Assembly: GCA_031213475.1 (NCBI GenBank)
Contig: JARUPZ010000005.1
Span: forward strand, 4,379,732-4,443,731
Length of the DNA: 64,000 nt
Origin: Nereocystis luetkeana
Taxonomy: Eukaryota; Sar; Phaeophyceae; Laminariales; Laminariaceae
Direction of reading: 5' to 3'
A model generated the notes under the pieces. The model searched no databases. It was not told where the DNA came from and saw only the letters and a list, made by a program, of their open reading frames with translations. Shown one piece after another: positions 22,643 through 63,400 of this stretch (positions within the stretch are counted from its first letter, which is position 1; each line of letters starts with the position of its first letter). A program made the position numbers and the translations under genes.

Positions 22643-22875
22643 TCACGGGGGGCCGGAGTAAGTTGGACCTACGGTACACAGAAAATCCTACCTAGTACCT
22701 GGTATATGTTAACCTACTTTTACTATCACGGGGGACCATAGTTAATAGGACCAAATATTGTCAGTAGAAAAAAGGAAATATATAGGTTTTAGTGTGCACA
22801 ATAGGTCCTACCTGGTATTTACTATGGTCCCCCGTAATAACAATATTTGGTCCTACTCACTATGGTCCCCCGTGA
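22643..22875. mobile_element. TA-hairpin MITE, outer copy split by another MITE
   Basis: The outer copy runs TCACGGGGGGCC ... CTTTTACTA, is interrupted, then resumes TAACAATATTTGG and ends GGTCCCCCGTGA. The break is at the TA of the family's CTAACAATATT core and that TA is duplicated, which defines the target-site duplication. It also carries a TACCTGGTA at 22,695-22,713. Confidence 0.85.
22726..22837. mobile_element. TA-hairpin MITE nested in another copy
   Basis: The inner element starts TCACGGGGGACCATAG and ends TATGGTCCCCCGTAA, with TA at 22,724-22,725 and 22,838-22,839. In its right arm GGTCCTATTTACTATGG has become GGTCC-TACCTGGTA-TTTAC, a micro-insertion at 22,811-22,817. Confidence 0.88.
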
Positions 22876-23089
22876 TAGTACAAACACAATCCAGGGAACA
22901 CGCAGAATAGAACAATACCGAAACGCCCAGAATACTGCTGTACTGCTGGAGAACATGCAGAAAGTACGGACCCCACCATCCCACCCGGGAACATGATCTA
23001 CTATTACACTCGTATTAATACTGTGTTTTAGATTTACTGTATGAGACAGATCAGGTACGCATCTGCCCTCAAATATCTACATCCTTTAA

Positions 23090-23301
23090 CCCTTACACGG
23101 CAAACCGCGGTCCCGTCTTGGGGACAAACAACACGAATTCTCACTATTACGGAGGACCATAGCAAGTGGGACCTACGGCACACACGAAAACCTGTACCTG
23201 GTAAATATTTCCTTATTTTTACTAACAATATTTGGTCCTATTTACTATGGCCCCCCGTAATAATTAGCCCCCAAGACGGGACTGCAGTTTGCCGCGAAAG
23301 G
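23090..23301. mobile_element. TTAA-hairpin element split by MITE
   Basis: The left arm is CCCTTACACGGCAAACCGCG after TTAA (23,086-23,089), the right arm CAAGACGGGACTGCAGTTTG. The TA-hairpin MITE at 23,147-23,260 sits in the loop with a duplicated TA. The outer arms differ from the usual family (GGCAAAC for AGAAC). Confidence 0.78.
23147..23260. mobile_element. TA-hairpin MITE inside a TTAA hairpin
   Basis: A complete copy flanked by TA/TA, inserted in the loop of the TTAA-type hairpin at 23,090-23,301. It carries a TACCTGGTA micro-insertion at 23,195-23,203. Confidence 0.87.
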
Positions 23302-23582
23302 AAACCGATGATGGACGTATCCGACGCTAAAATAGATTGTACCTGACTGACAGCAGTATTAGTATAGACGGTTGATAAACTTCTCTTACGCTGCTGCGTG
23401 GTGGCAAAAGTCGCTTTGCCTGGGTCCAAAAAGGTATACCAGGGTGACGGTATACCACTCTGTCCCAAAACATAGGGATCGTGTCGTATATTGATTGATA
23501 CAAAAACGGTTTTAATATTTTGGAACACGGCCGCACCAGCCGGGTACAGCACTACGACCTGATACTGCTACTGCTGTACATG

Positions 23583-23672
23583 TAGTGATGTAAATCGCGT
23601 TTTGCGATCACGATGCAATCGCGATTTCTGGTGATCGTGATCGCAAAAAAATGACCCGCGATCACGACTATT
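23583..23672. repeat. GTAAATCGCGTTTTGCGATCAC repeat
   Basis: A palindromic AATCGCG/CGCGAT-rich element. The start GTAAATCGCGTTTTGCGATC is identical at 32,840-32,875. Confidence 0.55.
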
Positions 23673-23674
23673 AA

Positions 23675-23763
23675 CCCCTTTAGAACCGCAGTCCCGTTTT
23701 GGGGACAAACCACCCAATGTTCAAGTAGTTTGTCCCCAAAACGGGACTGCGGTTCTAGAGGGG
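23675..23763. mobile_element. TTAA-hairpin element
   Basis: A full 89-base hairpin, TTAA at 23,671-23,674 and 23,764-23,767. Confidence 0.85.
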
Positions 23764-23827
23764 TTAAACAGAGCCTCCGATACATCTCTGCAGGTCAGAT
23801 ATCCAGCAAGACTGATGCTGGCTGCTA

Positions 23828-23932
23828 TTACGGGGAATCATACTTAATAGGACCTACGGTACAGACAAAAACCTACACACTTCCCTTTGTTTACCACCAA
23901 TATTTGGTCCTATTTACTATGGCCCCCCGTAG
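23828..23932. mobile_element. TA-hairpin MITE, copy 9
   Basis: A complete copy, TTACGGGGAATCATACTTAA to GGCCCCCCGTAG, flanked by TA. Confidence 0.85.
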
Positions 23933-25294: not shown

Positions 25295-25299
25295 TTAAG

Positions 25300-25432: not shown

Positions 25433-26994
25433 TATAGATGTATCTTAGCGCGATTTTACAAAACTTCTGTTGTGTGCATGTACTCGTAGATCAATGACTA
25501 TATGTGTACGCAGGTTCGTCATTTTTTCGAATTTTTGCCAACTTTTCTCTTCGTACGAGCGCTTTTCAGCAAAACAGTAAAAGTGCTCGGACACATGAAG
25601 CCCGGCCGGACACATTGGTCTAGGTCTCTTCGCGATCCGTGCACTCTGGAGCGCGTGGCGGGCGCTCAAAGTTTTTTCTTTCCGGCGGGAGTGGATAAGA
25701 CAATTTCCCTGGTTTCAGTACGAGAGGCCTTACTATGTACGGACGTATCGGTAAATGTTGTCTGTTTTCTCCCCTAGGCTCTCATCAGCTGTGCGCACAC
25801 AGCTCAGACATGTACCAGGTACACAACCGACAACATGCACAGATCCCATCGTTCCAACGCTGCCGCCCACACGCATGTACAGATCCCATTGTTCCAATGC
25901 TGCCGCCCACACGCCGTGCGTGTGCGACACACCCGTGTGCGCAGTGTTGCTGTGGCTGGTTGTGTTTGTCGGAGTATTCCACCGTTTGCCAGTTTTTTTT
26001 TAACACGTATGTACGCAGGCTGACGTACATCCCTGTACATTTTTTTTGTGTTGTTGCACGGAGCCCCGACCACCGCCCAGACAACAATAGCAACAGACCA
26101 CAGAGCGTGCTTACCTCCAGCTGCCTACAGCACCACAACCCTGCTGCCCAGCAGCAGCAGCAGTGGGCACACCTTGCGCGTATCGAAGATCGTACTGCGC
26201 ATATCGCTGTGTGTGATCCAACATTGCCATTGCTCCAGCTGTGCTCAGCACAGTGCGCCAACAGCAGCAGCAGGCAGGGTATGCGCATGTGGAAGACCCG
26301 CGCTGTACGCTCAGTACTACTGTAGTGTTCGTTGTTGTTGTCAGCGGCATTGACCTATGCACGCGTACCTTCCGCGAAGTGTGACCGGCATTTTTTGCTC
26401 GGTACCGATTGTCCCCGATATGTTCGTCGACTCGAGTATATACAACAAAAACAAATCGTTCGTACAAGCATCGTGTACATACAACAGCGTTCGTACTAGA
26501 TGAACATACTGACAGCAGTAGTTAGTGACTGCAGTGTGCCGTACACTGCTGACCGATAGATCCTAGAGCCAGCTGAAAGGGGATCAGTACACGCACGTTC
26601 CTTTGTCGCAGCACGCGTATCTTCTGCTGTCGTACAGGTATCAGACAACATGACATTTTACAGCAGCACTGCTGTAGACGCAGTCGGGCCTACACAAGCT
26701 ACTCTGCTGCTCTAGGAGATCCTGCAATGTGTTTTAGGTTGCGTAAAAAACACGACATGCAAGCTATACGAGCACTCCTCTTGGTGTCACACTGCTGTCG
26801 CTGTAACACGTGTCTCGGAGGTTCGATTTCCAGCTTCCGCTTTTTTTTTTGCACTCCTGGCTTTTTTTTCACCAGTACATCCACCTTGCTTTTCTGAACG
26901 TACCTGGTATGATATAATAACACAAGTTGTGTGTTTTTACCCAAGGCACAGATTTTGGGCGCGCTTACGTGTGGTGTGCGTTCATACCTCAGCA
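25433..26994. other. No gene called; CAGCAG-rich
   Basis: A short tandem duplication, ACAGATCCCATCGTTCCAAC / GCTGCCGCCCACACGC, at 25,836-25,915. Many CTGCTG/CAGCAG triplets and one TACCAGGTA at 25,813. Confidence 0.45.
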
Positions 26995-27740
26995 TTTCAC
27001 AGCTACTCCCAATACTTGGGAGTAGAGCAAAGTATGTTCGAGAAAATGCTGCTATACGAGTTACTCCCTTCACTCCACTCGCAGTATTTCGGGGGTTTTG
27101 TACACCAGATTCTGCGAGTACACGCAACATTTTGAGGTTCTGTACTACTGCTTCAGATGCTACTGCTGTGTATACTTTCGGGCTCGCACTAATCCGGGGC
27201 TCTCGCTACCGCTGCTGTCGTGGATACTGCCTGTTGTGCTGCAAGTATCTCGGGGTTCTGTACCACGGGTATTGCGAGAAGTATTATATATAGTCTTCTA
27301 TTAATAGCAGTATTTCATTCGTTGGTAGCGTTCGTATTACTGCTTCTGCGAGTACTCGCAGTAAATTCCGAAATACCCTCAATATGCCCAGTATACTTCG
27401 AGTATGACGTATACTTCGACCGGCTGTGCACCGTGTCGACAAATTCTCAAGCCCATTGTTCGGCACAAGACACTCCCAGATAGTCCCACGAGTGGGAGTT
27501 GAAGCAAATTACTTTCGCTGGGGACAACTCGAGTATATTTTTATATACCAGGTATGCACTGCGAGGAATAGTGTTTCCATACTGCGGGTACATACTTGCC
27601 TGTGCTCTCGGGGTTCGGTACTGCTCATACTCTCATTACTCTCAGTATGTGGGCCTTCTCAGTACTCGCAATACTTTAGCCGCCAGTACTCCAATACTCT
27701 CAGTACTCGGACAACGATTTGTTCTCGAGCATTTTCCTGT
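26995..27740. repeat. REP-E copy 2
   Basis: The same grammar as copy 1: CCCAATACTTGGGAGTAGAG at one end, CTCGCAGTATTTCGGGG blocks, and AGTCCCACGAGTGGGAGTTG, then CATACTCTCATTACTCTCAG. Confidence 0.6.
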
Positions 27741-28531
27741 GAAACCTTTTATGTTACCCTGAGGACCAAGGACACTTACTTTGCGGGAATACATATTGTA
27801 TTTGCTGTGTCTTACTCAGCCGGTCACAACATATTAAGGCGTAACCTCGACTTCAGGCAACTTTGTTGTGCGTACGTTTACGCCGCATACATTGAACTTA
27901 TCGCGCGAGTCATCTGTTTGGGATCAATATCCACTTACCGGTACCCTATTTATACGTATGCAGTATGGTATTATTGTAGTATAATGACCCCCCACGAATT
28001 CCGCAACAGCAGTATAAGTCTGTCCTAAAAAAATTGCGTGTGTATGGGATACAGCTATTAAATAACTGCTGTACTACTAAACAGGTGTGCAGGATTTCAT
28101 ACGAACGAATATTATTTCGCTCTTGCGCCACTCCCCTAAGCACCTCCCGGACAGCTTGTAATATAATACTGCTGTGTATACGAAGAATGGTGCTGTACGA
28201 GTATCGCCAACGACACAGCCGATATTTCACGTACCAGGGTATCAGGTATGGGTTAGCCCAGACGACGCGTGGCTTGGTCATTCTTATCATCTCGTACAAC
28301 AGGGGGATAGGACTTCCATGGAATACAACCATGAACGACGGACGTGCTCCAGTTGTCCAACTTGAACAAGTTCGCCAGCTTGAACATGTTCGGACGTCCG
28401 CACCGACGTGCCGGACCCGAAAGCAAGAATTGTACCAGATAGCGCTTTCCTATCGCCATCATATACAAAAACCAGCCGGCGCCTTCGTCACTGCCGCTAC
28501 AACTGCTACTACTACTCGCACTGCTGTTGCT

Positions 28532-28862
28532 GTAGTTGGCTGGAGTTGCATCAGAAAAGTGAAAAGTACGAGCCAGAGCAGCCTGATCTATTGATTGATA
28601 GTGGGCTACCTGCCGCTACCGGCACTCTCGTATCGTGGTACAGCACCTACCAGGTACGCGGTATCATGCTCGTAGTTTACACGTAGTTGGCTGGAGTTGC
28701 ATCAGAAAAGGGAAAAGTACGAGCCAGAGCAGCCTGATCTATTGATTAATACGTACCAGGTACCTGGTACCAGGTAGTGGGCTACCTGCCGCTACCGCCA
28801 CTATCGTATCGTGGTACAGCACCTACCAGGTACGTGGTCGTATCATACTCGTAGTTTACGCG
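28532..28862 (+). repeat. Tandem duplication, ~151 bp unit
   Basis: Units at 28,532-28,682 and 28,683-28,862 are nearly identical (GTAGTTGGCTGGAGTTGCAT). The second is longer because GATA-GTGGG has become ATA-[CGTA CCAGGTA CCTGGTA CCAGGTA]-GTGGG (28,752-28,776). Confidence 0.85.
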
Positions 28863-30593: not shown

Positions 30594-33500
30594 GTGAGCG
30601 ACAGGGAGAGAGAGAGGTTCAGAGAGAGGGGGGTTCAGGTTCAGGGTGGGTGAAAGAAACAGGCATATACCATAAGTCATGCGTACTGGTATCGCAGCAT
30701 GGAGAGCTACAGCAGCAGTGCTGCTCGTATCGTAACACAGCAGCAGTAGTAGTACTATTATTTATAATACTGCTGCTTGCTCCTGCTGCTGCTGCTGCAA
30801 GTACGTCAGTTGTCAGTTGTCAGTACAGCAGTACGAAGCCAAGACGGGCACCCAGCAAAACGAACAGAATCAATGACAGAACACAGAACAAACAAGAACA
30901 CAGATGGAACGAGACAAGTTGAATGAACGCAGCAGTGAGGTTTTGGTCCATACGATACGTACTGCCTGCTGTTGTACCAAAAGATGCCTGCTTTTAATAG
31001 CGACACGAGACACGAGGACATATTAGGTGCATTCTTATGGGAGAGAGGAGAGCGTTTTTTCCATAATTTCCAAAGTTTGGAAATAATTGGAGATATGTAT
31101 CAATATACGGAGGCGTTCTGTCACTATTCGTGAAATTCTTCAGGTTCATTCTTTTTATCGGAGAGCGTTCTCCCCATAATTTCCAAAGTTTGGAAATAAT
31201 TGGAGATATATATCAATATACGGAGGCGTTCTGTCACTATTCGTGAAATTCTCCAGAACCAAAAATATCAAGTTCATAACATTCCCATATTTGGAAAAAA
31301 AAACAGGAAAATGTGGGAGATTGAAAAATTGCGCGAAAAAAATGTCGAAAAATTGGGAAAAAAAACTCTCCGATAAGAATGACCCTCCAAAAATATCAAG
31401 TTCGTTAATATCATTCCAATATTTGGAAAAAAAAAACCCAGGAAAATATGGAAGCTTGAAAAATTGCGCGAAAAAAATGTGGACAAATTAGGAAAAAAAA
31501 CTCTCCGATCAGAATGACCCTTATTAATAGTATAAATGCTACCACAGGTGCGAGTTTTTTTTTTTTTTTTTTGCTCATCCCATTTACCAGTATTATCTAT
31601 CTTCACCCATCTTCTTCTTTCTCTCCTTCCAGCTCGTAACTCAGATCCGGGGTCAGCAGGCTCTTCTCCCCCCTTCCCGCTACGGTACGTGCCTTCATTT
31701 TTATCGCGAGAATATTTCAGCCTTTTCTTCCCTCGTCGACTCGCATCGAATTGTGCCTACCCACGCTGCAAGGCGCTCTCAACAAATGAATCATTTTTTT
31801 TATTTTTGCAAATAAAGTCAAAGTCCGACCCACCTGGGGCTCGAACCCAGGACTCAAACAAGTAGAATTCGAGGTTAACCACTTGAACCACCGGGGCGAC
31901 CGGTTGGGTAGGAAGAACGGATTTACCCTTTTACGACCGCAGTCCCGTTTTGGAGACAAATTACTCAGACTTTGAGTGGTTGGTCCCGAAAACGGGGCTG
32001 CAGTCCTAACACACACTCTGCTGCAGCACCTTGTCATACGTACGATCAGGGTTCGTTTGTCGTTCGTTCGTCCTACTGCTTGCCGTAGTCCTGCCGTCCT
32101 TTCATTGCTACTGGTGTCTGATGCACCCTGGTCATACGATACGCGCAGGGTTCGTTCGTCGTTCGTCCCAGTGCGTGCTCCCCGACCTTTGTTTCTTCCG
32201 TCCGTAATCCATACCATTAACATTGATAGAACCCCATCACTCCTAAAACCCTACCTGGTAGGTACATGCTATCAACTTCCATCACGTTTTGGCCCCTTCC
32301 GTCCGTCCGTCCTTCCTTCCTTCCTTCCTTCCTTCCTTCCTTCTACTCCTCGGACAGATCATCTACAGATAGATGATCTACGGATAGATAATCTACAGAT
32401 AGTTCATCTACAGATAGATCATCTACAGTTGGAGCACCTAGATTATCTGAAACCTAAGCTGCCGTTTTAAGATGTTGGACAGGATTTTGTACACTTGACT
32501 GTTGTACAACGGCAGTAGAAGTACAGATCCAACCCAGCGGGAAACATTAACATTTGCCAGATCATGTACTTACCCGGTAGATTTATACGGTTCCCGCCCG
32601 GCAACATGCATGATCTGGAACGTACAGATCATTCAGATCTTCGTACAGACCATTCAGATCTTCGTACAGATCATTCAGATCACCTGCCCTGCAAGCTTTT
32701 GAACTAATAATAATAGTATTACGAGTTTTCTCCCCTCCCGCTGTTTTCTCGTTTCTTCTATATACATTTGCTGCTTTGCTGCCTGTGTGCCAGGTAACTA
32801 ATACCTGTACGCAGGTATCTGGTATTCTGTTGGCTGTTGGCAGTGTTGTAAATCGCGTTTTGCGATCACGGTTTGATCGTTTATCGTGATATATATACCA
32901 GGTACTTAAGTAGTATACCAGGTACTACATACCGGTACAGCATTATAGTCTTCGCGAAAATATCTTCCGCGATCACGATATAGCTGAAACGCAAAAACGC
33001 CTCGGAAACCCTCTGTGAAACACTACAGGGGCAACGTTGCCAACTATTTGTTCCCTGTTTCCTGTTTCGTCTTACAACTTACAACATGGAGCTCATTTTC
33101 ATTTCGTTGTTCACCAAATACTCGCACCGCCTGTACATTCCTACGAACATGAGACCCTGGTTTTCGATATTGTTCAGGATTTTTACGGTTGTCTCGTTAG
33201 AGGACCATTTTCCTGCCCGATATCCGAAATATATGCGATTACTCGCGATTACTCGCGATATATATGCGATTATTTGTTTCGTTTGCGATCAATCGCGATT
33301 AAAAAATCAAAAAGACGATATTATCGCATTAATCGTGTGGCACCTTTCTTGGCGCGATATCCGACCCTGTCTGTTGCATTGTCGGTCGCCCCGGTGGTTC
33401 AAGTGGTTAACCTCGAATTCTACTTGTGTTTGAGTCCTGGGTTCGAGCACCAGGTGGGTCGGACCTTTGACTTTATTTTATTTGCAAAAATAAAAATAGA

Positions 33501-36500
33501 AAGGATTCAATTGTTGAGAGCGCCTTGCAGCGTGGGTAGGCACAATTCGATGCGAGTCGACGAGGGAAGAAAAAGGCTGAAATCTTCTCGCGATAAAAAA
33601 TGAAGGCACGTACCGTAGCGGGAAGGGAGCGGGAAGAGCCTGCTATGTGACCCCGGATCTGAGTTACGAGTTGGAAGGAGAGAGAGAAGAAGATGTGCGA
33701 AGATAATGAATGGGATGAGCAAATTAAAAAAAAATTATATATATATCCAAGAATCAAAGTCGGCTCTTGTTCTGCCCGCTCCTCACTGCGGTACGTGCTT
33801 CGCATTTCTTTGTATCGCGAGATCACAAAGTGGGCCACTTTCTTCCTTGACCCTTTCAGGACTGCAGTCTCGTTTCGGGGGCAATTGGAGACAAATTACT
33901 TGGAATTTGAGTGGCTTGTCCCCATAACGGGACTGGAGTTCTAAAAGGGTTAATTAACCCACCACGCGATACGAGTGCAAGGGCCCGTTGCGCTCTCGAC
34001 CGCAGTTGGTTCTCGTCTGAAAGTATACGCTTCCATCCTGTAAACGTGTACCTGGTATACGGAGACTCGAAAGTATTCGTGCCGATTCTACATTTTTTTT
34101 TTTTTTTTTTTTTTCTCATCCCATTCATTATCTTCGCCCATCTTCTTCTCTCTCTCCTTCCAACTCGTAACTCAGATCCGGGGTCACATAGCAGGCCCTT
34201 CTACCCCCTTCCCGCTACGGTACGTCCCTTCATTTTTATCGCGAGAAGATTTCAGCCTTTTTCTTCCCTCGTCGACTCGCATCGAATTGTACATGGAGCA
34301 TTATCACGAATATGTGTGTGTTCTTTACATTAAACCGTTCTTTCTACCCGTCGACACCCAGCACAAGCACAACCAGTGTCCGTGCCGATTCTTCAATCCT
34401 ATTAATGGAAGAGATAAAAGTTATGTGGTCACAATGCTACGTCACAGAGATACTACGTTGTCATGTACCAGGGTACCAGGTATGCAGTAAGCACAGCAGT
34501 GGGCAATGCAAAATGCAATGCCATGTCATTATACTATTAATAGATACGACAGGCACGAGATACACATTCTATGAAAGAGAGAAACGAAAGGAAAAAATCA
34601 AAAAGAAAACAAAAACAAAAAACAAGACAAATCGAAAGAGAAAAATAAAAAAGGAAAGGGAAAACTGGAAGAAACAACCTGTCGTGCCCCCCCCCCCCGC
34701 AGGCGAGGTGGCCAACACTCGAAAAAGAACGAGCTGGAAAAAAAAGGAAAAAATGACAAAAACACCACTGCTCGTAAACAGAGTAAGACAAAGAACCAAG
34801 AAAAAAATAACAAAGGGAACATAACAGGCAGACCAAAGCCCAAAGCACCCTCCAGGTGGCGGCAGCAGTTTGTGGTACGAGTAGTATAGCCAGGTTCTCC
34901 CTGCTAATCCGCCTGGTACCTTGCTACCCAGACTGCCGTCTCCGCCCTGCGTTCGTCAACTAAACCCAGCCCCTTGGCGTCAGACAATACGAAACGAGCA
35001 GAGCAGGTTCGTCATCCAACCACGCCACACGACTACGGCTTACCAGGTATCAATCAGAAAAGGAAGAGAAATAAATAAAATGAAAATTACGGAGAATCAG
35101 CGCAACAAAGAAAATAGACCACCGGGGCGACCGGTGCCTGTCAAAGGTGTCACAGCAGGAGACAGCACTTTCACCCCTTGACAAGACAGCGAGCAAACCT
35201 TGCCTGCCCTGACATGCCTTTGACTGACACCAAAATACTACCAGTACGTTTTAGTGTCCAATACTCGGCCCTAGACCCTTGACCGCGCACGTTTTGCGTT
35301 GCTTGACATGCCTCCTGCCATTTTTGATGGTTGGTACTGCTGTGTTATACCGCTATTATCCCCTTTAGCACCGCACTCCCATACTTGGGTACAATTCAGT
35401 CTAATTATAAGTAGTTTGTCCCCAAAACGGGACTGGGGTCCTAAGAGGGTTACATATTAATATTAATGTCAACAACAGAGTATCGGGATCAGGTACCAGG
35501 TACCAGGTAGATCATATCACAATTCGTGCCAGGTATATTATATATACGCGTTGTTATTATTATTGTTGTTGTTGTTGTTGTTGCTGTTCTCACGTAAACC
35601 TTCAGGACCGCAGCTCGGTTTCGAGGATGAAATGCTTGAAATTTGACTGGGTTGTCCCCAAAATGGGACTGCAGTTCTAAAAGGGAGTCCCGTGGTCACA
35701 CGAAGGTGCTGGGGCTCTTGTTGTTGTTGTTGTTCTCACATTAACTCTCTGACGAAGGAGTCCGTGGTCACACAAAGGTGCTGGAGCCCTATTAATAGGA
35801 AGATCCGAAAAAAAAACGAAAATTCGGCTGCCTCAAAATATACAAGACGGAGAAAGCGCACACGAGCTAAAACCAATGTACAAACTGAACGAGCATGGCC
35901 GCGGGTATATCCTCTCAACTATAACATAGAGAACCCCCGTTCCCACCACTAACCAACTCGTGGCTGCTGACTACAGCGGATACTGTCTGAAGTGCTTGCT
36001 GCCTGCACCGTACGAAACGCACGGTAGTCGTGAAAACGAAAGAGGAACACACCTGCCTGCTATCTGGAGTGCTGTCAGAGTGAAGACTCGCGGATATGCA
36101 GTGAAAAAAGGAGCAATCGAACCTTTTTACTACCACACGAATATCAACGACCGCCATCTCTTCCTGGACTGTCTGACACAAAAAGGTGCAGCACAGTTAT
36201 GATACCACGTCCCTGATATCGCATTTCCCCATGAAGGGTATACAACTCGTTGACCTACAAAGACCAGTGACGACGTTAATAACAAGTAGCGGTAGATACT
36301 ATTCTGCCTCGTGAAAAACAATACCTGGTACCAGGAAAAAAGAAACTTTGACTGCTTCTCTCGTGATGAAAGTGTGCGCGCAGATCATGGGTCTCCGTGC
36401 ACCGTCTTCCTGCGGCCAACGTCTTCCTGCCGCTCTTCATGGCCGCCTCATCGCCTTGGCCCAATCCACCCGCTCCTTTGCGCGTGCACTCGTTGCCATT

Positions 36501-39500
36501 CCCTTCCAGTCGATTCCCTTCCTCCGTCATCCTGAAAAACAAAATGCTCCTCGCACTTGCGGTTCTGATCTAAAAAAAAATATTCTCGCGCAGGGGGAGG
36601 TCAATCCGTCTCTTCCCCGCACGTCGACGCTCAGTCTCCCTCCTCCCTCGTCGTCGAATCCAGCCTCCTACGGGCGCAATAGACTGTGCCGTAGTGTGGC
36701 CTGTGGTGGCGCCTGCCTCCGCGCTCGGACACCCCGATTGAGCATTGCTGCTCTGCCGCAGCTGCCTAAAAAAGACGCGCGAATCGTAGGTCTCCGTGCC
36801 TTACGCACCACGTACAACCCAACTCTACTGCCGCCTGAGCCTCGCGGCCACAGGCAGCAGCAAGAAGGTATCACTCCTTGAGGGTGAGTCCGGCCTCACA
36901 CCCGCCAGAAAGACCTACCCCACTCTAAAGCATGCCTCGCAGCATTCCTTGCCGAGGCAGCGAGGGGAACGGAAGTAGTCTATAACCTATTAGTAGGAAG
37001 ATCCGAAAAACCATTTAAAAAAAAGGAATTCCGGCTTGAAAGCACGCCGCTATAAGACCTATGCCAATGGGGCAGCGAAGTTTCAATAAAAAGTTTGAAT
37101 TTCAAAGATACCCGCCAAAAAAGTTCAGAACACGCTTCCTATGGGCCACGTAGAAAAAAAAAATGTTCCTAACTTTTGGAAAAGCCCGAAAAAAGCAAAT
37201 CTGGGGCCGATGTTGGGCCAACATCGGCTTGAGAAAAACTCAGGCCGATCTTTGGTTCGAAGCGGCGAGATTCCGAGTCCTCGACAGACATCGATCAACA
37301 AAACCAACGATTGCGTCACGAATTCTGAACGGAGTGCGCTCGTTAGGGGCTCCGACCCACCCTAGGGTCACCGTCTTCACACCATGGCCGGTGTCATGTG
37401 GCGGGAGCTGACCGGGCGCATGATAAAAAACATTCGGCCGCTGGTTTGCACAAAATAGAAGACAAAACTTCTCCATCCGTCTCGAATGGCAAAAAATAGA
37501 CGTTTTTTCAGGTTTGGGAGGATACCGTAGGACGCCGCCGGCAAGCTCTGGCGCCCTAGACCATGGATCCACCTGATATCTTCGAGGCCGTCATCTATAT
37601 TCGTTGGCCTTGCCAGATACCGAGCGGATTGGCCGTGAGCTGAGTCTATGTCGAGATCGAGCGTCGATCGTCGCACGAGCTGGTTTCTATCACCGTGTTG
37701 ACAATTTGCAACCAGAAAACCACAAATTGCGCCGCCTGCAGCCGTTGGGGGGAAAAAAAGAAAAAAATCAAACATTTTTCTCTCTTTTTTCCCCACAGCG
37801 GCGGTACGTGAGAATTTTTTCGGCTGTTTTTTTAAAGCAATATATTTGAATAAAACCTTTTTGAACTTCGCGTTTCCATTGGCATGGGTCTAATACATAC
37901 AGTAACATACGCACGTCGCACGTAAAAATACACGAGACGGGGAAGGCGCGCTGCGCGCGCGTGAAATGAAATCACTCCTGCTGCTGTGCCAACTGCAAAT
38001 TGAACTTTTAATTACTTGGCCCATGTATCCAGCCAACTTCAGCTCAGAGTTTCCCCCCGTTCCCAGAACTAACCAACTCGCGGCTATATGCGACTGGCTA
38101 TAGAATACCGGTGCAGCGGTTCGGTTTCTGTGTGGAGTGCTGCCTGCACGGTACGAAACGCACGGGAGTTCTTAATAGTCGTGAACACAGAGAGAGGAAC
38201 GCGCCTGCTGCAGCATGTCCGGGGTGCTTTGCTCTTAAGAGTGACCGACGACTCGCGGGTATGCAGGGGAAAAAAAAAAGGAGCTACCAGCTACCAGGTA
38301 CCTGGTACGTATCGAACCCAAACCACGATGCAACCATGAACGATATTTTTTTTTATTTTTTTTTTTCCATCCCATTCATTATCTTCGCACATCTTCTTCT
38401 CTCTCTCCTTCCAACTCGTAACTCAGATCCGGGGTCACATAGCAGGCTCTTCTCCCCCCTTCCCGCTACGGTACGTGCCTTCATTTTTATCGCGAGAAGA
38501 TTTCAGCCTTTTCTTCCCTCGTCGACTCGCATCGAATTGTGCCTACCCACGCTGCAAGGCGCTCTCAACAATTGAATCCCTTTTTTTTTTTTGCAAATAA
38601 AGTCAAAGTCCGACCCTCCTAGGGCTCGAACCCAGGACTCAAACAAGTAGAATTCGAGGTTAACCACTTGAACCACCGGGGCGACCGGCTATATATAGGT
38701 CCGTGTCTTCCTTCCCGAACTGCTGTCGTACTATCATACCAGGTATGATATTATTAATCATACGTGATCATAATATCATATGGTACGTACAGAAGATGAA
38801 AAAAAAAAACAAAAAAAAAGCATTACTCATCAAATCATGTATCGTATCTTTTTTTTTTCTTTTTTTTCCATATCATATGTACGAGCAGCAGTAAAACAAT
38901 ATGCGCCGGATATTCCGAGATTGCGGCGGTTTTCTTCTCCGACTCCCTACCTATTATTACCTGCCTTGGTCACGGTGCGCTAGTGCTGCCCCACGCCCTG
39001 TTCTATATCCGTACTGACCTACCAGTACAAACAGCAGTAATACCTGGTAACTGGTAAACCCTTCTAAGGCAAAACTGCAGTCCCGTGTTGGATACAAACT
39101 ACTTACAATTTGAGTGGTTTTGTCCCCAAAACGGGGACTCTAGTTTTTGCTTCAAAAGGGTCAAGTATCATATACCAGAGTATGTATACACTATTACAGG
39201 GAACCGTAGTAAATAGGACCAAATGTTGTTGATAAAAATAGGTAAAAACAAGGCGCTTCGCTCCGCGGGCGGCCTACGCCGCCCGCTACGCTCGCTCTGG
39301 AAGGAAAAAAGTACATCAAATTATGCGAAGTGACAGAGGTCCACGATTGAGTTTAGGTCGTAATTGCAAACCGGCGACTTGATAATGCCAAGAGTCCCGC
39401 CGCCATGCTTCAGGAACAAACAGCTCCGACGCCAGCTCGAATGCCACATATGCGCTTCGCGTCGCGGATGTCGTACGTACGTACATACCCCACGGAGGAT

Positions 39501-48500: not shown

Positions 48501-51500
48501 ATATATGCATGTATAAGTCAACGGTTAGCTGTTGAGGATTGCGGGGTTGGGGCTGGGATTGGAAGGGGGGTGGAGGGTTTAGGGGGGGGGGCGGCGTTCG
48601 GGAAGAGTTGGTGAAGGGAAGGAGAGAAGAATAACGAAAGGAAAGGGGGGGGGGAGGAAGGGGCGGGAACTGAGCGGGGAGGACGGGGTTGGGCGGCGTT
48701 CGGGAAGGGGGGGAGGGGGGGGAGGTACACGTTATGTAGTAGTCGTACGACTGTAGGCTCTAGCATCCCTGCAATGCCGGGACGTGGGGAAGGGGGGGGG
48801 TTATACTCATTGTCATCCATGGCCGTAGTCGTTTGACCATAGACCCTCGCGCCCCCTACAATACACTGCCGGGAAGCGGAGCAAGTCGGGTGGGTCTTCG
48901 CCGACCATGCAGACATTGCTTGCTTGCCCCAAGCGCGAAGCGAGACGTGAGATACTGGGCGAGTCGCATGAATCGTGAAGCTACATAACATCCTATTAAT
49001 AGTAGGGTTCGCTTTTGAGGCGGACTTGCATCTTCGAACTATTTTCGGGGGACCATAGTAAATAGGACCTACGGCACACACAAAAACCTATATATTTACC
49101 CATTTTTATCAACAGTATTTGGTCCTATTTACTATGGTCGCCCGTGATAGAGAATTATTTGAGGGGGGATTGAGNNNNNNNNNNNNNNNNNNNNNNNNNN
49201 NNNNNNNNNNNNNNNNNNNNNNNNNNNNNNNNNNNNNNNNNNNNNNNNNNNNNNNNNNNNNNNNNNNNNNNNNNAGTGGCTCGTGTTGCCTGGGATATAA
49301 CCTGGGTTGGATGCTGCAACAAGCAAAAACCCTGTATGATACAACGCCTCAATAGCCGCAGTTCAATCCTGCGCAAGATCTAGATGATGGTATTCGTCCC
49401 CCCCCCCCCCCCCTTTTCTTTACGCATACGCACGTACGTACGTTCGTATGTACACGTACGTACGTACCACCTAACGTTTAGTTTTTGCCCATGTACTAGG
49501 TATGTTTTTTACCAGGTATACACGTACTCTGTTGTGGCATGTTTTTCTTTTTATGCCCATGTTTTTTTTTGGCTGTCTCTTGCTCTCTGTTTTTTTTTTT
49601 TTTTTTTTCTCCTTTTTTTCTCTCAAATCCTGTTTGTTCCCAACTACATACCAGTACATATACTGTAGTTTTCGGCGATCCGTCTGCTTTTTTTGTTGGA
49701 AGGCGGCTGTCTGGCCAGTGACTATATACACAACGTTGACCGTTCGAACGGTGTTTCTGTGCGATGTTCTGTTTTTCCTGGTGCGATATTTTAGGTGTTC
49801 GTCATGTCGCGAACGGCGGTGATGGAGCAGACGAAGATGCCCACCTTCAAGGAGGCTACCAAGAAATGCCTGCTGCAGCCCCTATCAGGCGTGCCGCCCG
49901 CGGCGACGGTTCTGTACGTGTCGCACCGATGGTCCGGCCCCGGGAAGGCCGACACTGATGACGGACACGCCCACATGCAGGTACAAGTAGGTTAGAGGGG
50001 GATGGTGGTGGGGGGGGTGGGGTGGGGGGGGGGGAGGGGGGGGGGAGGGGGGGGGGGGGCGGGGGTTGCGGTGTTGTTGTTGGTTCTGGTGTTGCTGGTG
50101 TTGGTGTTGGCGCTGTTGTGTTGATTGCTGCTGATGTTGATGTTGCTGTTGCTGCTGTTGTTGTTGTTGTTGTTGTTTTGCATTCGCGTTTTGTCCACCT
50201 GGCTCCTTTCGGTGGACACACGTATTTATTGAGATAGCCTATGGTCATTCATACCCACGACTACACGGCCATGAGTACACCAACCCCCCGCCCCCCCGCC
50301 CATGGAAAAGTAACTTATAAACATAGCTTGTTAACTCAACCTGTCATCCACGTGCAAATCCGCCTCACAAGCGTTTCCTAGTAGGGTGCAGCTCACCCTC
50401 CATACGACTCGCCGGACACCTTACGGCGCTTCGCGCACGGTGCGAGCAAAAGAAATGACTGCCTGGTCGGTGAAAACGTGCCCCGTCCCGGCATTGTAGC
50501 CCCCCCCCCCCGCCACCCCCCCCCACCCGCGAATCCGATTTCGATTTACCGTCATCTGGAATGTATTAACGCTCGTCCCCTCTCCCTGTTGACACCTGTT
50601 ATCCCTCCGCCTACCAACCCCCTCCTCCCTTCGCTCCCTTCCCCCCCCCCCCCCCCCCCCTCTCTCCCCATTTCTTGTGTGTGTGCCAGCTGACTCGCTA
50701 CCTGGAAGAGCCCGCGGGGCAGGGCATCCACTACATCTGGTTGGATGTCTCCTGCATCGATGTGAGAGCGCCTCGCGCGGCCTGACCTACCCCCACCCCC
50801 GCCACTCCTGACGGTATCACGTAGTGTTCGTGGTAAGGCACCCAAGAGGCGGTTACATAGTGCCCCCGTTGCTGTCTCTGGAAGTGGCTACGCGTACACC
50901 GGAAATTGAATTAACTCATTCGAAGCTCTCATTCATGTGCGAATAAGTCCGCCTCGCAAGCGGTTCTTAGTAGGATGCAGCTCACCCTTCATGCGACTCG
51001 CCGGACACCTCACGGCGCTTCGCGCTTGGTGCAAGCAATGTCTGCTCCGGTCGGTGAAAACCCGACGTGCTCCGTCCCGGCATTGTCGTGATGCGAGGGT
51101 CTATGGTCATACGACTACGGCCATGGCCATGCATGAGATCGAGTACATCTCTCCTATCGAGTACACCCCCCCCTCCCCCCCCCCCCCCCGCCTGCTCCCA
51201 TTGATCTGACACGTACCGGGTTATGCACCAGTAACAACTGCGTACAGCAAAATAGCGAGTTCCTGGTGCTGTCGTCTATAGTAGCGAAGGTATGCTGCTG
51301 TAGTGTTAACCCTTTTAGAACTGCAGTCTCATTTTGGGGACAATCGATTCAAATTTCAAGTAGTTTGTCCCCAAATCGGGACTGCGGTTCTAAAAGGGTT
51401 AATAGTCGTATGATACGAATCCCAGTCGTTTGAAAAAAGTAAATAAATCTGGTCACAGCAGCGCAATGGAATTAGGTACGTGCCTCGTACGATGATGTCC

Positions 51501-54500: not shown

Positions 54501-56678
54501 AGTGGTGGTGGTGGGGGGGGGGGGATGGGAGTTGCCAACGGACGTGATAACAGGCGGGAGTGTGTGTGTGTTTTTTTATGTTTTGCTTGTTTTTGTTTGA
54601 TGGTCACAATAGGCCGCCCACGCTGATGACTTTGCTGACATTGTATTATATGATTTTGTGTCGCATGACCTCATGCTGAGACGTTTTTTGGGTTTCGTGA
54701 ATGGCCATGCTTTTTTTTCATTTTTTTTTTTTTAATCCTCCGGCGGATGGCCATTCTTTTTTATTATTTATTTTTTGGGTTGCATGACCATGCTGCTATG
54801 CTTTGTGGTGCATGAGTGAGTTGAATGACCATGCTCGTATAATTGTGATGTTTTTGTGATGTATGCATGAGCCATGCTGATGTGTTTTGGTGCGGATGTT
54901 TTTTTGTTTTTTTTTTCGTGTTGCCCTGCCCATATACATGCTGTTGAGTTTTTTTTTCATGTTACATGACTACTGTGCTAATATGCTTTTTGTGTTTCAG
55001 GCATGCCCATGCTGATATAGCACGTTTTCATTGGTTCGCTTGTTTCGGTTCGTTGCAGGCGCGAGAGGAGGCGGCGGCCGCGGCGGCGGAAGTGACTCAC
55101 GACGTGGCCCAGACACCGGCCGTTTTGAAGGAGCCCGTCCTCTACTCCGACCCTGCAGCGCTGCTTAACCGCGGGTATGATGTTGGTGGTGGGGGCGGGG
55201 GAGAGCGGGGGGGGGGGGGGGGGGGGGAGGGGGGCGGACTCATTTCGTTGATTTGCCTTAGTCGTTCGACCATTGACCACGCATCCCTTTCGAGATGGAG
55301 CCGGGGGGGGGGGGAGGTGTAATGATCATGCATGGTAAGGGAGTGAGGGGTGGTTGTTGTTGGTGATGTTGCTGTTGCTGTTGGTGGGGGTGGTGCTGTT
55401 GCTGTGGTGGTGATGTTGGTGTCGGTGTCAGTGGCATTGGGATTGATGGGTGTTGGTGTTGTGATGTCGGTGTGGTGGTGATGGTGTCATGGCGGTGCTG
55501 CGTGGTGGTGATGGCGTCGGTGCTGTTTGCTGTGTTTTTTGTTTGTTTGTGTCGGTGGGTGCTACTGCTGTGTGATTATTTGCCTACTGCTGCTGTGTAT
55601 GTTTTCTTTTACTGGTTATTCGTTGTGGGTATTGATGCCACTGTTGTCGTTAGTGGTATTGTTACTGCTTCTGCTGCTGCTGCTGCTGCTGCTTGGTTCT
55701 CAGAATAGAAGCTATCGCCGCACGATCTTAAAACCCGCAGAAAGAAGAACGAGCGGATTCACCATCCATCAAGAGGGCAACATTTTATCTTACAGTACGA
55801 ACAATAGTCACGGTGTGTTGGCCCCCTTTTCCCTGTATTGTTTCCGTCCGTTTCGTTTACGATTCTCTATACGTCTTTCTGGGTCAACTTCCCACCGGTT
55901 TCCCGAAAAAGGCACTCGAAAGCTGCGTATCAGGCAGTATTTGATCGATCGATCTCATAAAAGCTGACGTGTCCGTATCGATACTTCTACAATACATCAA
56001 TACGAAGGGTGTGTTCTGGAGGGTACGTATTCATACGAACTGACTACACAGTAAACCGGGGGGTGTATGTACCCTATCGACGTCTCGGACGAGGAAGGTT
56101 CGGTACGGCGCCAATACCCTACCGGACACCGGGGCAAGGTTCTATATACTTCGGACGGACAGATCATGATCTGTCTGTCTATCTATCTATCTATCTATCT
56201 ACAGATAGATCATCTAGATCCTCACCGGCCGTTGTGAGAGGTTGTGGTACATTATCTGCCTTGTAGGGCAGACCCTGCCCAGGAAACGTGCGCTGTTGAT
56301 AGATCATGCAGATTGATTCGGGTCCCACTCCCGAAACAACATGAGATATACTGCTGTACTCGTTCGAGATCATGCAAGCGCGGGAACATAGATCTATGTA
56401 TCTATCTATCTATGTCTATCTGGCCATCTATGTGTATATCTGTCTATCTGTTTATCTATCTATCTATCTATCTATCTATCTGTCTGTCTGTCTGTTTGTC
56501 TAACTGTCTGTCTATCTATCTAGATATCTATCTATCTACCAGGTATCTATCTATCTTTCTGTCTGTCTGTATATCTGTCTATTAATATATATCTGTCAGT
56601 ATATCTATATATCTGTCTATCTATCTATCTATATATCTATGTGTTTGTCTGTTTGTCTTACTGTCTGTCTATCTATCC

Positions 56679-57420: not shown

Positions 57421-57465
<45 letters not shown>

Positions 57466-60400
57466 ACCTGGTATGTTTTTGTATCCCCTGGTGACGTCAA
57501 CCGCCTACGCTTCCGCGTTAAACGTTCGTGTTGTGTGTCAATTTAAGCGGTCGCTGCTACGTACATGCGTGCCTTGCGATGTACGAGGGTAGCCAGGTAC
57601 CAGGTATTAATCATTTGTGTCTCTTTTATTGCTCGGCAGGTGGGTGGAGATGGAGATTTCCTTGGCGCTGGTATTCGGCGTGCAGGTGCTCGTCTGCGCT
57701 CGCTGGGGACCCAAGGTATGATACGGTTTTGCGCGTCGTTTTTTAGCCGTGCTGTGCTTGTACCGTGCCATCGCCACACGCTTCCGCACCATTCTTTTTT
57801 TCGTTTTCTTTTCCATACCAAGCATACCATGCCATCTGCCATTCCATTTAAATATCATGCGTCGTTTCCTTGGGTCATGTCTACCGCATCGTGTTTTTCC
57901 ATACCATACCACATCGTACGGCATCCCATATCCACACCCGTACTATATATACCATACCGTGCCATACCGCCTTTGCTGTGGTGCGGTACTATGTAACGTG
58001 AAATGACTGTACTTCACCGTAGCGGTGATTAACGTAGCTTGCCTCGTGCCCTGAACTGCCTCTGCTACTACTGTGCTTCACCGTAGCGATTATTAGCCTT
58101 AGCTTGTCTCGTCCTGAACTGCCGCTGCTACTACTACGACCGGCACTGCAAGTAACAGCACGAGGAAGCGCACCGTGCTAAAAAACAACAGGACGAGTAT
58201 ATAGCCGCACGTGCACGAAGATGATAGCAGCCAGCGCGTATGAGTACCGCATGAAAAATACCAGGTACTCGAGAAGCCGCTCGTGCGCGAAAGCTCTCGT
58301 GTGTTATTTTCTTTTTTTTTTCATCACTTTCTGTGTACTACTATAGGAAACGCGTCTTTTCACGAAAACTCCATCCACAGCAGTACGTATTTTCGCCTTC
58401 TCTATTATTTATTATTTAGGAGGGCCATAGCAATCAGGACCCCATCATACACACTAAAGCCTACCAGGTATCTATTCTAGTATTTTTGCTGAGCATATTA
58501 AATAGGACCCATTAAATAGGGGACCTACGGTACTCACCAAAACCTACCTATTTCGATATTTTTACTATTAATAACAATATTTGGTCCTATTTACCAAGGT
58601 TGTGTTCGGTAAGGTACATACCGAGGCGTACCAGCGGTAATGTACCTCCGGTATACCGGTACCGAGAAGTTCGGTACCTTCGGTATGATCTCCATACCGG
58701 TACCGAGGACTTCGGTACGTTCGGTACGAGGTCCATACCGGTACCGGGAAGTTCGGTACGTTCGGTACGCAGTTCGTACCGGTACCGGTGGTGCCGGTAT
58801 AACAATCCGTACCGGTACCGAGATGTTCGGTATGTTCGGTAAGATCTCCGTACCGGTACCGAGAAGTTCGGTATGTTCGGTACGTCGTCCATACCGGTAC
58901 CGAGAAGTTCGGTACGTTCGGTACGATGTCCGTACCGGTACCGAGCATACCGGTACCTTACCGAACACAACCTTGCTATTTACTATGGTCCCCCGTATTA
59001 CGGTGCTGCTGCGTGTTCCCCCGTAACAGCAGTGAAGGCGTTTTTTTTTTTGTTCACGAAATCTCGTATTTTCTATATTTTCTATATTTTCTATTTTTCT
59101 CTACTTTTTTTTGTTCGTTTGCTTACGTCATCGACTGGATGGATTGGATGGATTGGATGGATGGATGGATGGATGGATGCGAACGCCGAATTACCCTACT
59201 ATTGTACTTAACGCTGGTAGGTTACCTTCCAAACGGTACTGGTGAAATCGATCATGGCCGAGGACGGGGTCACGGAAGAGCAAACCCCGGGTTTCAAGGG
59301 GGCGTTCTTGGCTGGCCTCGAACGCATCGCGCCCGACGTCGAGGAGGCTACGGGTGAGCGCGTGGAGAAGAGGGGGGGGTTGGGGGGGGTGTACTCATTA
59401 TCACGCATGGCCGTAGTCGTATGACCATAGACCCTTGCATCCCTATAATGCCGGGACAGAACACGTCGGGTTTTAAGCGACCAGGCAGAGACATTGCTTG
59501 CACCAAGCGCGAAGCGCCGTGAGGTGCTGAGCGAGTCGCATGAAGGGTGAGCTGCATCCCACTAAGGGAGGGCGAGGGGTGGGGGGGGGGGGGGGCTGGG
59601 GCTGGGCTGTGGCTATTTATAGACCACGTAGCGGTGTCCAACTTTTTGTGTTTCCTTTTGTGTCGTTGTGTTGGGTTGTGTAGTGGTTGTGTTGCGTTGT
59701 GCTGTGCTGCTATGATGTGTGTGCGTTTTTTTCTCGTTTTGTTGTTTCGTTTCTCCTTGTTTTCACCCTTTTAGTACCGCAGTCCCGTTCTCGGGACAAA
59801 GGGCTCAAATTCTGAGTAGTTTGTCCCCAATTGTCCCCAAAACGGGACCGCAACTCTGAAGGGGTTTATTTACCATACGCGTAGCTTTTTTTTTTTGGGC
59901 CGAAATATTTCCAGACTGACAAGCCTTCCTGAACTCATAAACGAACTGCTGTAGCCGTGATATTGTCCCACTATTACGGGGGACCATAGTTCATAGGACC
60001 AAATATTGTTAGTAAAAATGGTGAAATATATAGGTTTTTTTATGTATACCATAGGTCCTATTAACTATGGTCCCCCGTAATACTGTTTTTATTATTTTTC
60101 GCTTCCTACCTGGTAGCAGAATCTTTTTTGAACACTACACGCGATTGGCCCGCGCGAGAGGTCAAGGCTTTTGCGTTAAACAAACAAACGAACGAAAACG
60201 TTTCATCGAGGAGATCTAGAGCTCAAGTTCTACTATTAATAGTCACTGCCCCGACCATACGTGCCACGCGTCTTATCTAGGGTCTGTCATTTTCGTATTG
60301 TCTTATCTTTTGCTGTCTTACGTTATAGTCTCTTGCGACAAGCTTTGCTGTTCACGTCGACTTCCGACCGATCCCGTCCTTCCCCCCTTCCCCCCCCGAC

Positions 60401-63400
60401 TACCACTCCCGGCCACCAACCACCCTTGCGCCCCCGTTTTCGTTATATGAAGGTCTGGTTGTGGCAGCGAAGCGGGCGTTTCACGTGCTCGAGCGTCCTG
60501 CAGATGCAACGGTTCCCGTGAAGGTCACTTACTTGCCCATGCTCAACGACTGCCACGAGCCACAGGTGGGTTTGTGTGTGTGTCTGTGTGTATCTGTGTG
60601 TGTTTGTGTGTGTGAGTTTTTGTTTATACGCATGCAGAAATAAATCACAGAAGCCTTCCATCTTCCCATGGAAGAACACAGAACACCTCAACGGGAGGGG
60701 GGGGGGGAGGGGAATTATAGTCGAATCAAATAACTACAAGAACAGTGAGAGATGCGCATCATGGCTGGAAAACAGAAGAGGGCAGCGTACAGCATCGAGC
60801 AGGAAACATTCGGATCCTTGCGCGAGTTGCGACCTATACGAATCCGATGGGGCTCTCTCTCGCATACTGGTGCGGGAAACACATTTTCGAAACGACAGAA
60901 GAAAAGCAAAATGAAAAGGAAGTGGAGTGAAGTAAAAGTGGAGTGAAAAGGAAGTGAACTGAGCTGAAGAATCGAAACAGGATAACCCGACAACGGCTGC
61001 TCTACCGCTGCCGCCGCTACCTCCGCCGTCGCCGTCGCTTCTGTCTCGATGCTGCCGATGTTGGCGCTTGCTAATTGGATGACGCACGCACGCGCACGCG
61101 CGCGAGCAGTCAGTGGTGGCTCCGCTTGTTCGAGCGTCCCTCGCGCTGCACAACGAAGGGGCGTTGCTTCCTTTCCTCGCGGGAGACCTGACGCCGGTGG
61201 ACCTCATGTACAGACTGTCTGGGGTGAGAGAAGTGAATCGAAACTTGGCGCTACGGTATACTAGGTACCTGGTAGTGTATACCCGGGCAAAGTGGGTAAC
61301 AGGTGTTGATTAGCTGCTGGTAATACCTTTGGTGACAAGACGGGTACCAGGTACCAGGTAGGTACGAATCGATCCTGATCGTCTGTTACAACCCTCTTGG
61401 AACTTTTTTTGAGAGCGGGGACATTGACGGCCCGAAAAGTGGAGATCGAAACAACGGCCACGTCGCGTGAGAACTGTGTCTCGAGTTACGCCGCGAGGAA
61501 TCGATCGCACGGCATTGCGCTGGCGCTACGTCAATACTTTACTCAACCATTCCGACGGGCGCTCGCGTTGCTCGAAAAATGGCCGATATCGCAGCAAGTT
61601 ATGTTGACAGTTGTTGTGATCGCTGTCTCAGGGTTCCTCCCGTAATATGGCTTTTGTGTCGTCTTTATTGATGTTTTTGTTTTCATCATTGATACATACA
61701 TTTGGGTTTCATCGATTAGTTTTCGTTGTTTTGTTTTGGGGGGGGGGGGCGGGGGGTGGCGCCGGTGGACCTCATGCATAGATCTGTCTGCACGGGACGA
61801 GTGACGTGATTTATGGAGCGCTATGATATAGTACTGGTGTCGGTTTTGTTGTTGTTGTTGCTGTTGTTGTTCACGTCGGTTTTCGTATGGTTACATATCA
61901 ATCGAGTTTTTTCGATTTACTGCTGGTGTCGTTTTTTGTTTTTGTTTTCAAAGAATCAATAACTGCAGGATATATTTGAAGAAGAAAAGAAAAGGAGACA
62001 CAAACACGTCTTTTCATCGATTTGCTTGATGATGGTGTCGATTCGTCCCGCTCTGGATGCCAATATATGTAAGGGCCGTCAGGCGTTAACATGATTGCTT
62101 AACCTCAGTTTACGGCGGGAGTGGTATCGATTGAGATTGTCGATTTTATCGATTGCGTTGGGCGAGAGGGGGGGGTGGGGGGGGGGGGGGTACTCGGATC
62201 TCATGCATGGCCGTAGTCGTATGACTATCGACGATTACCGATCTGTCGATTTGTTTGAAAATGCGGTCGCATGTAGTAGCACTTGTTCCAATTATACTAC
62301 GAGGTATATACCATCCACATAGAAACGGGAATCCATAATCCAACTGCTGGTACGAGTACGAGCTTCAGACACGGAAGGCGTTGTTGTGTGTCCCCGTCTT
62401 GGCAAAAAACAAACAAACAATCCTCTCCGCTCCTCGAGCCTGACATCTTGCTGAACCCCCCGCCGCCCCGCCCCGCCCCCCGCCGTCGCCGCCTTGTAAC
62501 CTTACAGCTGGCGCTGCGGGATGTGAAGGAAGGCTTCGCGGGTCTCGGTCCCATATCGGACGAGCGGGACAGGGTAACCCTCGTCCGCCTCTACCTCGTG
62601 GGGCTGTCGTACGCCATGGGGGTCATGCCGAAGGGCGAGGGAGTCGTCGGTAAGTGGGAAAACGCTTCCTCCCCCCCCCCCCCTCCCGCCGCCCCGCCTC
62701 GTCCAATACTCAAAATGAACCAAGTAGCACAGTAGCCCTCCCCCCCCTCCATGGTCATACGACTACGGGCATGCATGATATCGAGTACCGCCTGCCACAA
62801 CCCCCTGCCACGACCTTGGCAAAAAGTTTATATGAAGTTATATGGAAAGAACGTAATGAGCGGCCCGATGTTGAAGGTGTCTTTGGGGGGAGTAGGAACG
62901 GTGCGCTCCGTCTCGAAAGGGATGCGTGGTCGATGGCCAAAATGACTAATGAGGCAAAGCAACAAATGCGTGCGGCCCCCCTGCCGACACCACAAGCACA
63001 TTGTTGTTGTTGTTCTCACATTAACTCACAATTCAATGCAGTCCGTGGTCGCAGGACAGGCTCCAATAACTCTGGAGTGGAAGAAATACCTCAAGTAAAA
63101 ACAGAGGCAAAAAACAAAAAACAAGCATACGCACTCCACCACTGCGGACACCAGGGAAGCAAAAAGGAGACTATTAATAGCAGACAAAAACCTAAAAAAA
63201 AAGAAGATGAAGCTAAGCAAAAGAAAAACAAAAACAAAACTAAAACAGAAGCAGATAGCAAAACGCGAAAAAAAGGCAAAACGGACCATACTAACAAACA
63301 CATATACAACCACAACAACAACAACAACCACCACCACACCAACCGCCAACACCACCACCACATCAACACAACCACAACGATCGCCAACAGCCATCACTAC

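Follow-up and report, generated by a model that had tools for sequence, protein, structure and literature searches.

CCWGG insertions at TA in the genome of the brown alga Nereocystis luetkeana, likely footprints of transposon excision

The word TACCWGGTA (W, A or T) recurs throughout the genome of the brown alga Nereocystis luetkeana, where it marks a 7-bp insertion at a TA dinucleotide. We analyzed a stretch of 64,000 nucleotides on contig JARUPZ010000005.1, referred to here as the window (C5:4379732-4443731), together with a 263-kb sample consisting of C1:200001-300000 and of C5 from the window onward. Counts refer to this sample unless the window or the whole genome is named. The insertion process is recent and has a symmetric target preference, and each copy of the word, or scar, was probably left behind by the excision of a mariner-type transposon that targets TA and has CC- ends. 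The best candidate source is of the plant mariner (PlantMar) type.

Abundance of the scar and its insertion at TA

An earlier reading of the window had estimated about 40 copies of the word against about one by chance. This was exceeded, with 44 exact copies in the window, whereas 100 dinucleotide shuffles gave 0.52 on average and never more than 2. The 263-kb sample holds 130 copies (2.4 expected), and the genome as a whole (465 Mb) contains 182,395, or ∼1 per 2.5 kb, versus 1,744 for a reversed-pattern control. Tandem double scars occur 15,917 times in the genome and twice in the control. The span of 22695..61352 originally assigned to the motif proved too short: scars run from 6,739 to 61,360, and those at 6739, 10909, 14970 and 18840 precede its start.

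On the + strand of the window, 24 copies read CCAGG and 20 read CCTGG. Since these two forms, TACCAGGTA and TACCTGGTA, are reverse complements and thus one word on two strands, the middle A or T reflects only orientation; the ambiguous middle base, which had been taken as a sign of repair, is no evidence for a mechanism. A single 5-bp product predominates. The shorter and longer variants noticed earlier are both enriched, CCAG between TAs occurring 26 times (10 expected) and the 6-base variant TACCAGGGTA (CCAGGG) 8 times (0.5 expected; window positions 28232-28241 and 34466-34475 and six other places). Further minor forms between TAs are CG (132 versus 62 expected) and CCGG (16 versus 3.7 expected), with 9 of the 16 copies of TACCGGTA lying in a single tandem array at 58.65-58.96 kb.

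The scars of the window are as follows, located as exact words and without an assigned strand except where a line gives another basis:

6739..6747, TACCTGGTA scar, CGTA run just before
10909..10917, TACCTGGTA scar
14970..14978, TACCTGGTA scar
18840..18848, TACCTGGTA scar, plain TA in C1 paralogue
22696..22704, TACCTGGTA scar, adjoins TACCTAGTA
22809..22817, TACCTGGTA scar within MITE-A copy, plain TA in sister copies
23195..23203, TACCTGGTA scar within MITE-A copy, sisters differ by 9 bp
25813..25821, TACCAGGTA scar
26901..26909, TACCTGGTA scar
27546..27554, TACCAGGTA scar
28648..28656, TACCAGGTA scar, common to tandem copy at 28824
28754..28776, triple scar TA-CCAGG-TA-CCTGG-TA-CCAGG-TA, plain TA in tandem sister unit
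28824..28832, TACCAGGTA scar, common to tandem copy at 28648
32252..32260, TACCTGGTA scar
32896..32904, TACCAGGTA scar
32916..32924, TACCAGGTA scar
34049..34057, TACCTGGTA scar
34474..34482, TACCAGGTA scar in REP-D, adjoins CCAGGG variant
35041..35049, TACCAGGTA scar
35494..35509, double scar TACCAGGTACCAGGTA
36322..36330, TACCTGGTA scar, C1 paralogue without one 7-bp unit
38292..38307, double scar TACCAGGTACCTGGTA
38737..38745, TACCAGGTA scar
39041..39049, TACCTGGTA scar, adjoins TAACTGGTA
41081..41089, TACCAGGTA scar
41496..41504, TACCAGGTA scar
41559..41567, TACCTGGTA scar
44303..44311, TACCTGGTA scar
47489..47497, TACCTGGTA scar
47774..47782, TACCAGGTA scar
49510..49518, TACCAGGTA scar
56537..56545, TACCAGGTA scar, breaks up CTAT microsatellite
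57465..57473, TACCTGGTA scar
57598..57606, TACCAGGTA scar
58259..58267, TACCAGGTA scar
58462..58470, TACCAGGTA scar
60107..60115, TACCTGGTA scar
61266..61274, TACCTGGTA scar, adjoins TACTAGGTA
61345..61360, double scar TACCAGGTACCAGGTA

That the word arises by insertion at TA, as originally predicted, is borne out by empty sites and by small indels between paralogues. We collected 235 distinct indels between 3 and 40 bp in length. Those of exactly 7 bp number 27; 12 of them duplicate TA, and all 12 contain CCWGG. Eight of the other 15 belong, by eye, to one repeat family, and two more 7-bp indels (C1 39016 and 49901) involve a CCWGG word but do not cleanly duplicate TA. The words TACGAGTA/TACTCGTA, present 52 times versus 11.6 expected, are not among the TA-duplicating indels. 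Insertion at TA with duplication of the TA is also characteristic of Tc1/mariner footprints.

The individual sites for which insertion had been claimed differ in clarity. The insertion at 22,809, in a copy of the miniature inverted-repeat transposable element (MITE) family MITE-A, is clean: sister copies read GGTCC-TA-TTTACT, and a plain TA is found in 26 of 30 spanning alignments. The one at 28,754 is also clean, yet it is compound: TA has become TA-CG-TA-CCAGG-TA-CCTGG-TA-CCAGG-TA, a difference of 25 bp. The site at 23,195 differs from its empty partners by 9 bp, and that at 34,474 (in the repeat REP-D) shows an untidy 15-bp gap. Insertion is unconfirmed at 38,292 (in REP-C), where no partner spans the scar, and at 58,462, where the sole partner likewise bears the motif and no empty site is seen. 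At a site absent from the original prediction, 56,537, the scar splits a CTAT microsatellite, and near-identical duplicates on C1 provide further pairs with and without the scar.

The insertion process is recent, since copies with at least 95% identity differ by CCWGG. In alignments of this class (17,224 aligned bp, 585 substitutions), CCWGG makes up five of six 7-bp indels, with three sites shared. Its share is 7/13 at 90-95% identity, 4/25 at 85-90%, 0/19 at 80-85% and 0/9 at 75-80%, in alignments that partly overlap, so that not all events are independent, and in which gap placement becomes poorer with divergence. The scars also decay: one-mismatch words number 122 versus 54 expected, ∼68 above chance beside the 130 exact ones, which suggests a mean divergence of ∼5.5%. 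Since the scars carry mutations, the 5-bp scar is inherited.

Target preference and parallel families of probable footprints

Target preference was assessed at 110 of the 130 sites, the 20 that adjoin another scar being left out. T is present at +6 outward from either TA in 52% of cases, against a background of 26% over all TAs (p 4e-18), with hardly any difference between the two sides (58 right, 57 left). A or T at +7 reaches 84% (53% at all TAs), A at +1 is scarce (7% versus 19%), and the signal is gone from +9 outward. When the filter was tightened to 92 sites, 37 of their 184 flanks have a TA at +6/+7 (against 8% for TAs overall), 37 again have one at +1/+2 (8%) and 33 at +3/+4 (9%). A symmetric preference around TA is another feature of Tc1/mariner footprints.

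Seen from either of its TAs, a scar itself supplies another TA at +6/+7. We saw 10 tandem junctions among the 130 sites, where chance predicts ∼2.4 and the preference raises the prediction to 6-7 (13,808 TAs); target choice can thus account for most tandems. Among the tandem pairs listed, 59 on the plus strand are oriented AA (23), TT (17), AT (14) or TA (5). The 19 pairs of mixed orientation do not stem from slippage, while the excess of pairs in one direction points to slippage for some of these.

A parallel footprint family, which serves as a control, is formed by the word TATTAATA, probably the excision footprint of MITE-A. The latter has ends of the form TA-TTACGGGGGACC ... GGTCCCCCGTAA-TA and 21 matched stretches in the window, fragments included. 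There are 17 copies of TATTAATA in the window (including 34535-34542, 58566-58573 and 7518-7531) and 41 in the 263 kb, the latter versus 4.8 expected. Representatives, again without an assigned strand, are

42433..42541, MITE-A copy TA-TTACGGGGGACC...GGTCCCCCGTAA-TA, putative source of the control family of footprints
34535..34542, TATTAATA scar (control footprint), plain TA in related copy 44,207-44,283

Empty sites were seen for TATTAATA, which prefers G, T and A at +1 to +3, and a C-TA-G context is common to TATTAATA and the MITE-A ends (judged by eye on the MITE-A side). Two bases kept from each MITE-A end would leave TA-TT-AA-TA. The CCWGG and TATTAATA families both target TA, form tandem doubles, have empty sites and consist of a short product flanked by TAs; they differ in that the proposed source of TATTAATA is abundant in the window and its target is C-TA-G. 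MITE-B (TTAACCC...GGGTTAA) was rejected as the source of TATTAATA, as its flanks show TTAA but lack a regular outer TA, and MITE-A fits. MITE-B itself, found at 51306-51402 of the window and in 17 other matched stretches, is possibly piggyBac-like, judging by its TTAA ends.

A third word, TACAGTA (87 versus 36 expected), is paralleled by the TA-CAGT ends of pogo-like elements. The pogo-like transposase domain PF03184 has 28 matches in the genome, from which 20 loci were cut out. Ends are TA-CAGTACCGG in L048 and L051 and TA-CAGTGGGG in L038 and L040 (left end only in L040); at the other PF03184 loci, no ends are visible in ∼3.5 kb each. Because the visible ends begin with CAG and not CC, pogo-like copies were discarded as a source of CCWGG. 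The CCWGG, TATTAATA and TACAGTA words have three different target preferences, as expected of different transposases.

Separately, L038 and L040 share stretches that are 99.7-100% identical, L040 lacking an internal 1.3 kb. A pogo-like DDE gene lies in L058-L039-L059 (C35:5109100-5115700); it has an open frame of 415 codons, and other open frames are close by. Terminal repeats were not found in these 6.6 kb, and L039 looks like a several-exon pogo-derived gene, perhaps domesticated.

Excision as the likely origin, its candidate source and the alternatives

We infer that the scars are likely excision footprints. The element would insert at TA, which becomes duplicated, and would exit by staggered cuts inside its ends, with short 3' overhangs staying on the flanks. 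These overhangs would pair with each other around a central mismatch (A.A or T.T), after which filling and sealing would give TA-CC(A/T)GG-TA. Each scar would then create an additional TA at a distance of five bases from its neighbor. This is a favored context, in which further insertions would produce tandems.

A PlantMar-type mariner in the same genome is proposed as the candidate source, and this is the step of the explanation that we hold least firmly. PF24964 (DUF7769), which we take to be the helix-turn-helix of plant-type mariners, has 19 matches in the genome. These matches are to the helix-turn-helix; on its N-terminal side the flank was read at 5 of the 19 loci, one flank per copy. 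Two of them, L062 (C35) and L063 (C3), are 77% identical and homologous up to ...GACT, after which they diverge, L063 continuing into GG-TA and L062 into CCAGG-TA. Read inward, the L063 end is TA-CCAGTCCGACATT (TA-CCAGTC) and the L062 end is TA-CCTGGAGTCTGACATT (TA-CCTGGAGTC). No such end is present in the flanks read for L060, L061 and L064, although L064 has the inner part in common, partly inverted.

With the L063-type end (TA-CCAG), a 4-nucleotide overhang CCAG would pair via CAG/CAG to yield CCWGG; with the L062-type end (TA-CCTGG), a 5-nucleotide overhang would pair directly and give the same product. Overhang repair as in Sleeping Beauty, proposed in the original prediction, remains the best mechanism, with no support from the middle base and with the proposed 5-nucleotide overhang suiting the L062 end only. 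An element ended by CCAGG/CCTGG, also predicted, was not found in the 263 kb; elsewhere in the genome, L062 has one end reading TA-CCTGG.

Sleeping Beauty overhangs pair via a central mismatch, giving TACAGTA/TACTGTA. Internal eliminated sequences of Paramecium are bounded by TA and removed with uniform repair; the proposed algal element would resemble them in both respects, but they leave a single TA, whereas the alga keeps an inherited 5-bp scar. Sleeping Beauty makes staggered cuts with 3-nucleotide 3' overhangs, its footprint being the overhang (PMC7827188), printed in one source as TAG(T/A)CTA (PMC2874221) and 3 bp long compared to 5 bp in the alga. Footprints measure 2-4 bp in Tc1/mariner elements according to the authors of a study on ZB (PMC7913693), and 0-4 bp are left by the pogo relative Passer (PMC9976928). 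In the plant mariners Osmar5 and Ppmar2, the cuts are staggered by 1-4 nucleotides, 1-4 bp of the element end remain between the TAs, and the products are diverse (PMC9632168, PMC1925063). While Stowaway/PlantMar footprints are diverse, one 5-bp product predominates in N. luetkeana. No earlier report of a CCWGG scar was found among the papers listed in literature searches, mostly outside subscription journals, and the main text of a paper on Ectocarpus transposons (PMC12477816) does not contain the word "footprint". The 9-mer occurs as a string in 217 papers; the 25 of them that were listed deal, judging by their titles, with subjects other than transposons.

No source element with matching CCWGG termini was found in the window, as had been stated originally. 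A search of the window for pairs of CC- termini at TA returned 200 pairs (at most 5 mismatches in 16) versus 20-31 in three simulated controls, the best being known repeats or scar pairs; the 263 kb yielded only chance pairs, inverted duplications, known repeats and scar pairs. Insertion breaks between paralogues in the 263 kb revealed no source element, and no paralogous pair there combines an element at a site with a scar at the same site of the sister copy. The Tc1-type domain PF13358 (DDE_3) had no match at E <= 0.001 (30 candidates scored; control matched in 3 of 14 genomes). The mariner domain PF01359 (Transposase_1) had none either (3 scored), a result of little weight as no control genome matched.

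Several observations count against excision from such a source. No element with CCWGG or CC- ends was found in the 263 kb that hold 130 scars, and 88 half-sites TACCWGG without a second TA share no sequence beyond local duplications. Outside scars, TA borders 24 of 202 CCWGG flanks in the window, versus 16 of 206 for CCSGG. The L062 and L063 ends disagree (CCAGTC versus CCTGGAGTC), with one end each, and copies with both ends were not seen. TACCAGGGTA is enriched without its mirror CCTGGG among the enriched words, an asymmetry that excision does not explain, and 40 of the 59 listed tandem pairs have the same orientation, an excess over chance that is not expected if insertions were only independent events. 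Finally, known excisions are messy, with 8 of 94 perfect in rice across several superfamilies (PMC4423477), whereas the algal scars are uniform.

A less likely alternative is that the same mechanism operated on another TA-targeting transposon, lost or very rare and distinct from L062/L063. The missing element in the 263 kb, the discordance of the two PlantMar-type ends, the unmatched PF13358 and PF01359 (the latter searched without a control match) and the CAG ends of the visible pogo-like elements would all agree with this. Against it, copies with an identity of 95% or more do not share all insertions, so that the source was active recently, and CC-ended PlantMar-type copies are present in the genome.

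A direct, single-step addition of the 7-base unit to TA, through templated repair or a transposase bearing only end fragments and never involving a full element, is improbable. It would accommodate 130 scars without an element, the predominance of a single product and tandem units partly mixed in orientation. However, we know of no enzyme that adds a 7-base unit at TA directly, and TATTAATA and TACAGTA behave alike and have proposed sources.

Selection for a protein-binding palindrome, without insertion, is hardly credible: the word is near-palindromic and very abundant, but paralogues are short by exactly seven bases, empty sites contradict it, the word splits a microsatellite, scars decay and there are 182,395 copies. 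Slippage or unequal exchange, suggested by the frequency of tandem pairs and their mostly uniform orientation, may add to tandem copy number but is refuted as the origin, since most sites are single, 19 of the 59 listed pairs are opposed and slippage cannot produce single insertions at a plain TA.

Returning to excision by a mariner-type transposon, its uniformity, its near-completeness and the persistence of the scars fit an element that is often on the move but seldom multiplies. The closest paralogues have 5 insertions for 585 substitutions, so that under neutrality a handful of source copies would be enough. We also consider, as a rather doubtful extension, a near-single-copy mariner with near-obligatory excision and near-uniform repair that spreads as a trail of scars and not as copies, perhaps through host-run excision and joining comparable to programmed DNA elimination.

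If the scars are due to excision, one genome holds 182,395 perfect ones and yet no source copy was found in 263 kb; the genome would be a dense record of jumps in which the jumping element itself is nearly invisible. Repeat annotation by copy counting would miss such an element, whose effect on the genome would be 7-bp insertions and not copies. The scars can be dated by decay, they bear the target preference of their transposase, and near-identical paralogues differ in them. Sequence alone could therefore serve to measure how often the element transposes, which targets it chooses and how its ends are repaired, in a lineage with little study of mobile elements.

Further observations

The words ACAGCAGT (16 copies) and ACTGCTGT (21 copies) together occur 37 times in the window versus ∼2 expected, with no empty site seen. 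In viral contigs, TACCWGGTACCWGGTA was found in nine stretches (L001-L009), not above chance by a rough estimate, and the MITE-A pattern was not found there. A reverse-transcriptase frame at 3936-4823 (- strand) of the window had no relative in prokaryote contigs; among the named relatives listed all are from Ectocarpus, the top-scoring one with 63% identity over 69% of the query. A near-perfect inverted repeat of ∼1.3 kb overall lies at C1:218704-219971 (L019). In C5 repeats (for example at window position 59419), 8-bp TGACCA indels duplicate TA and make up 6 of 13 distinct 8-bp indels, belonging by eye to one repeat family. Window positions 58613-58996 form a tandem array of 41-bp units, most of which contain TACCGGTACCG.

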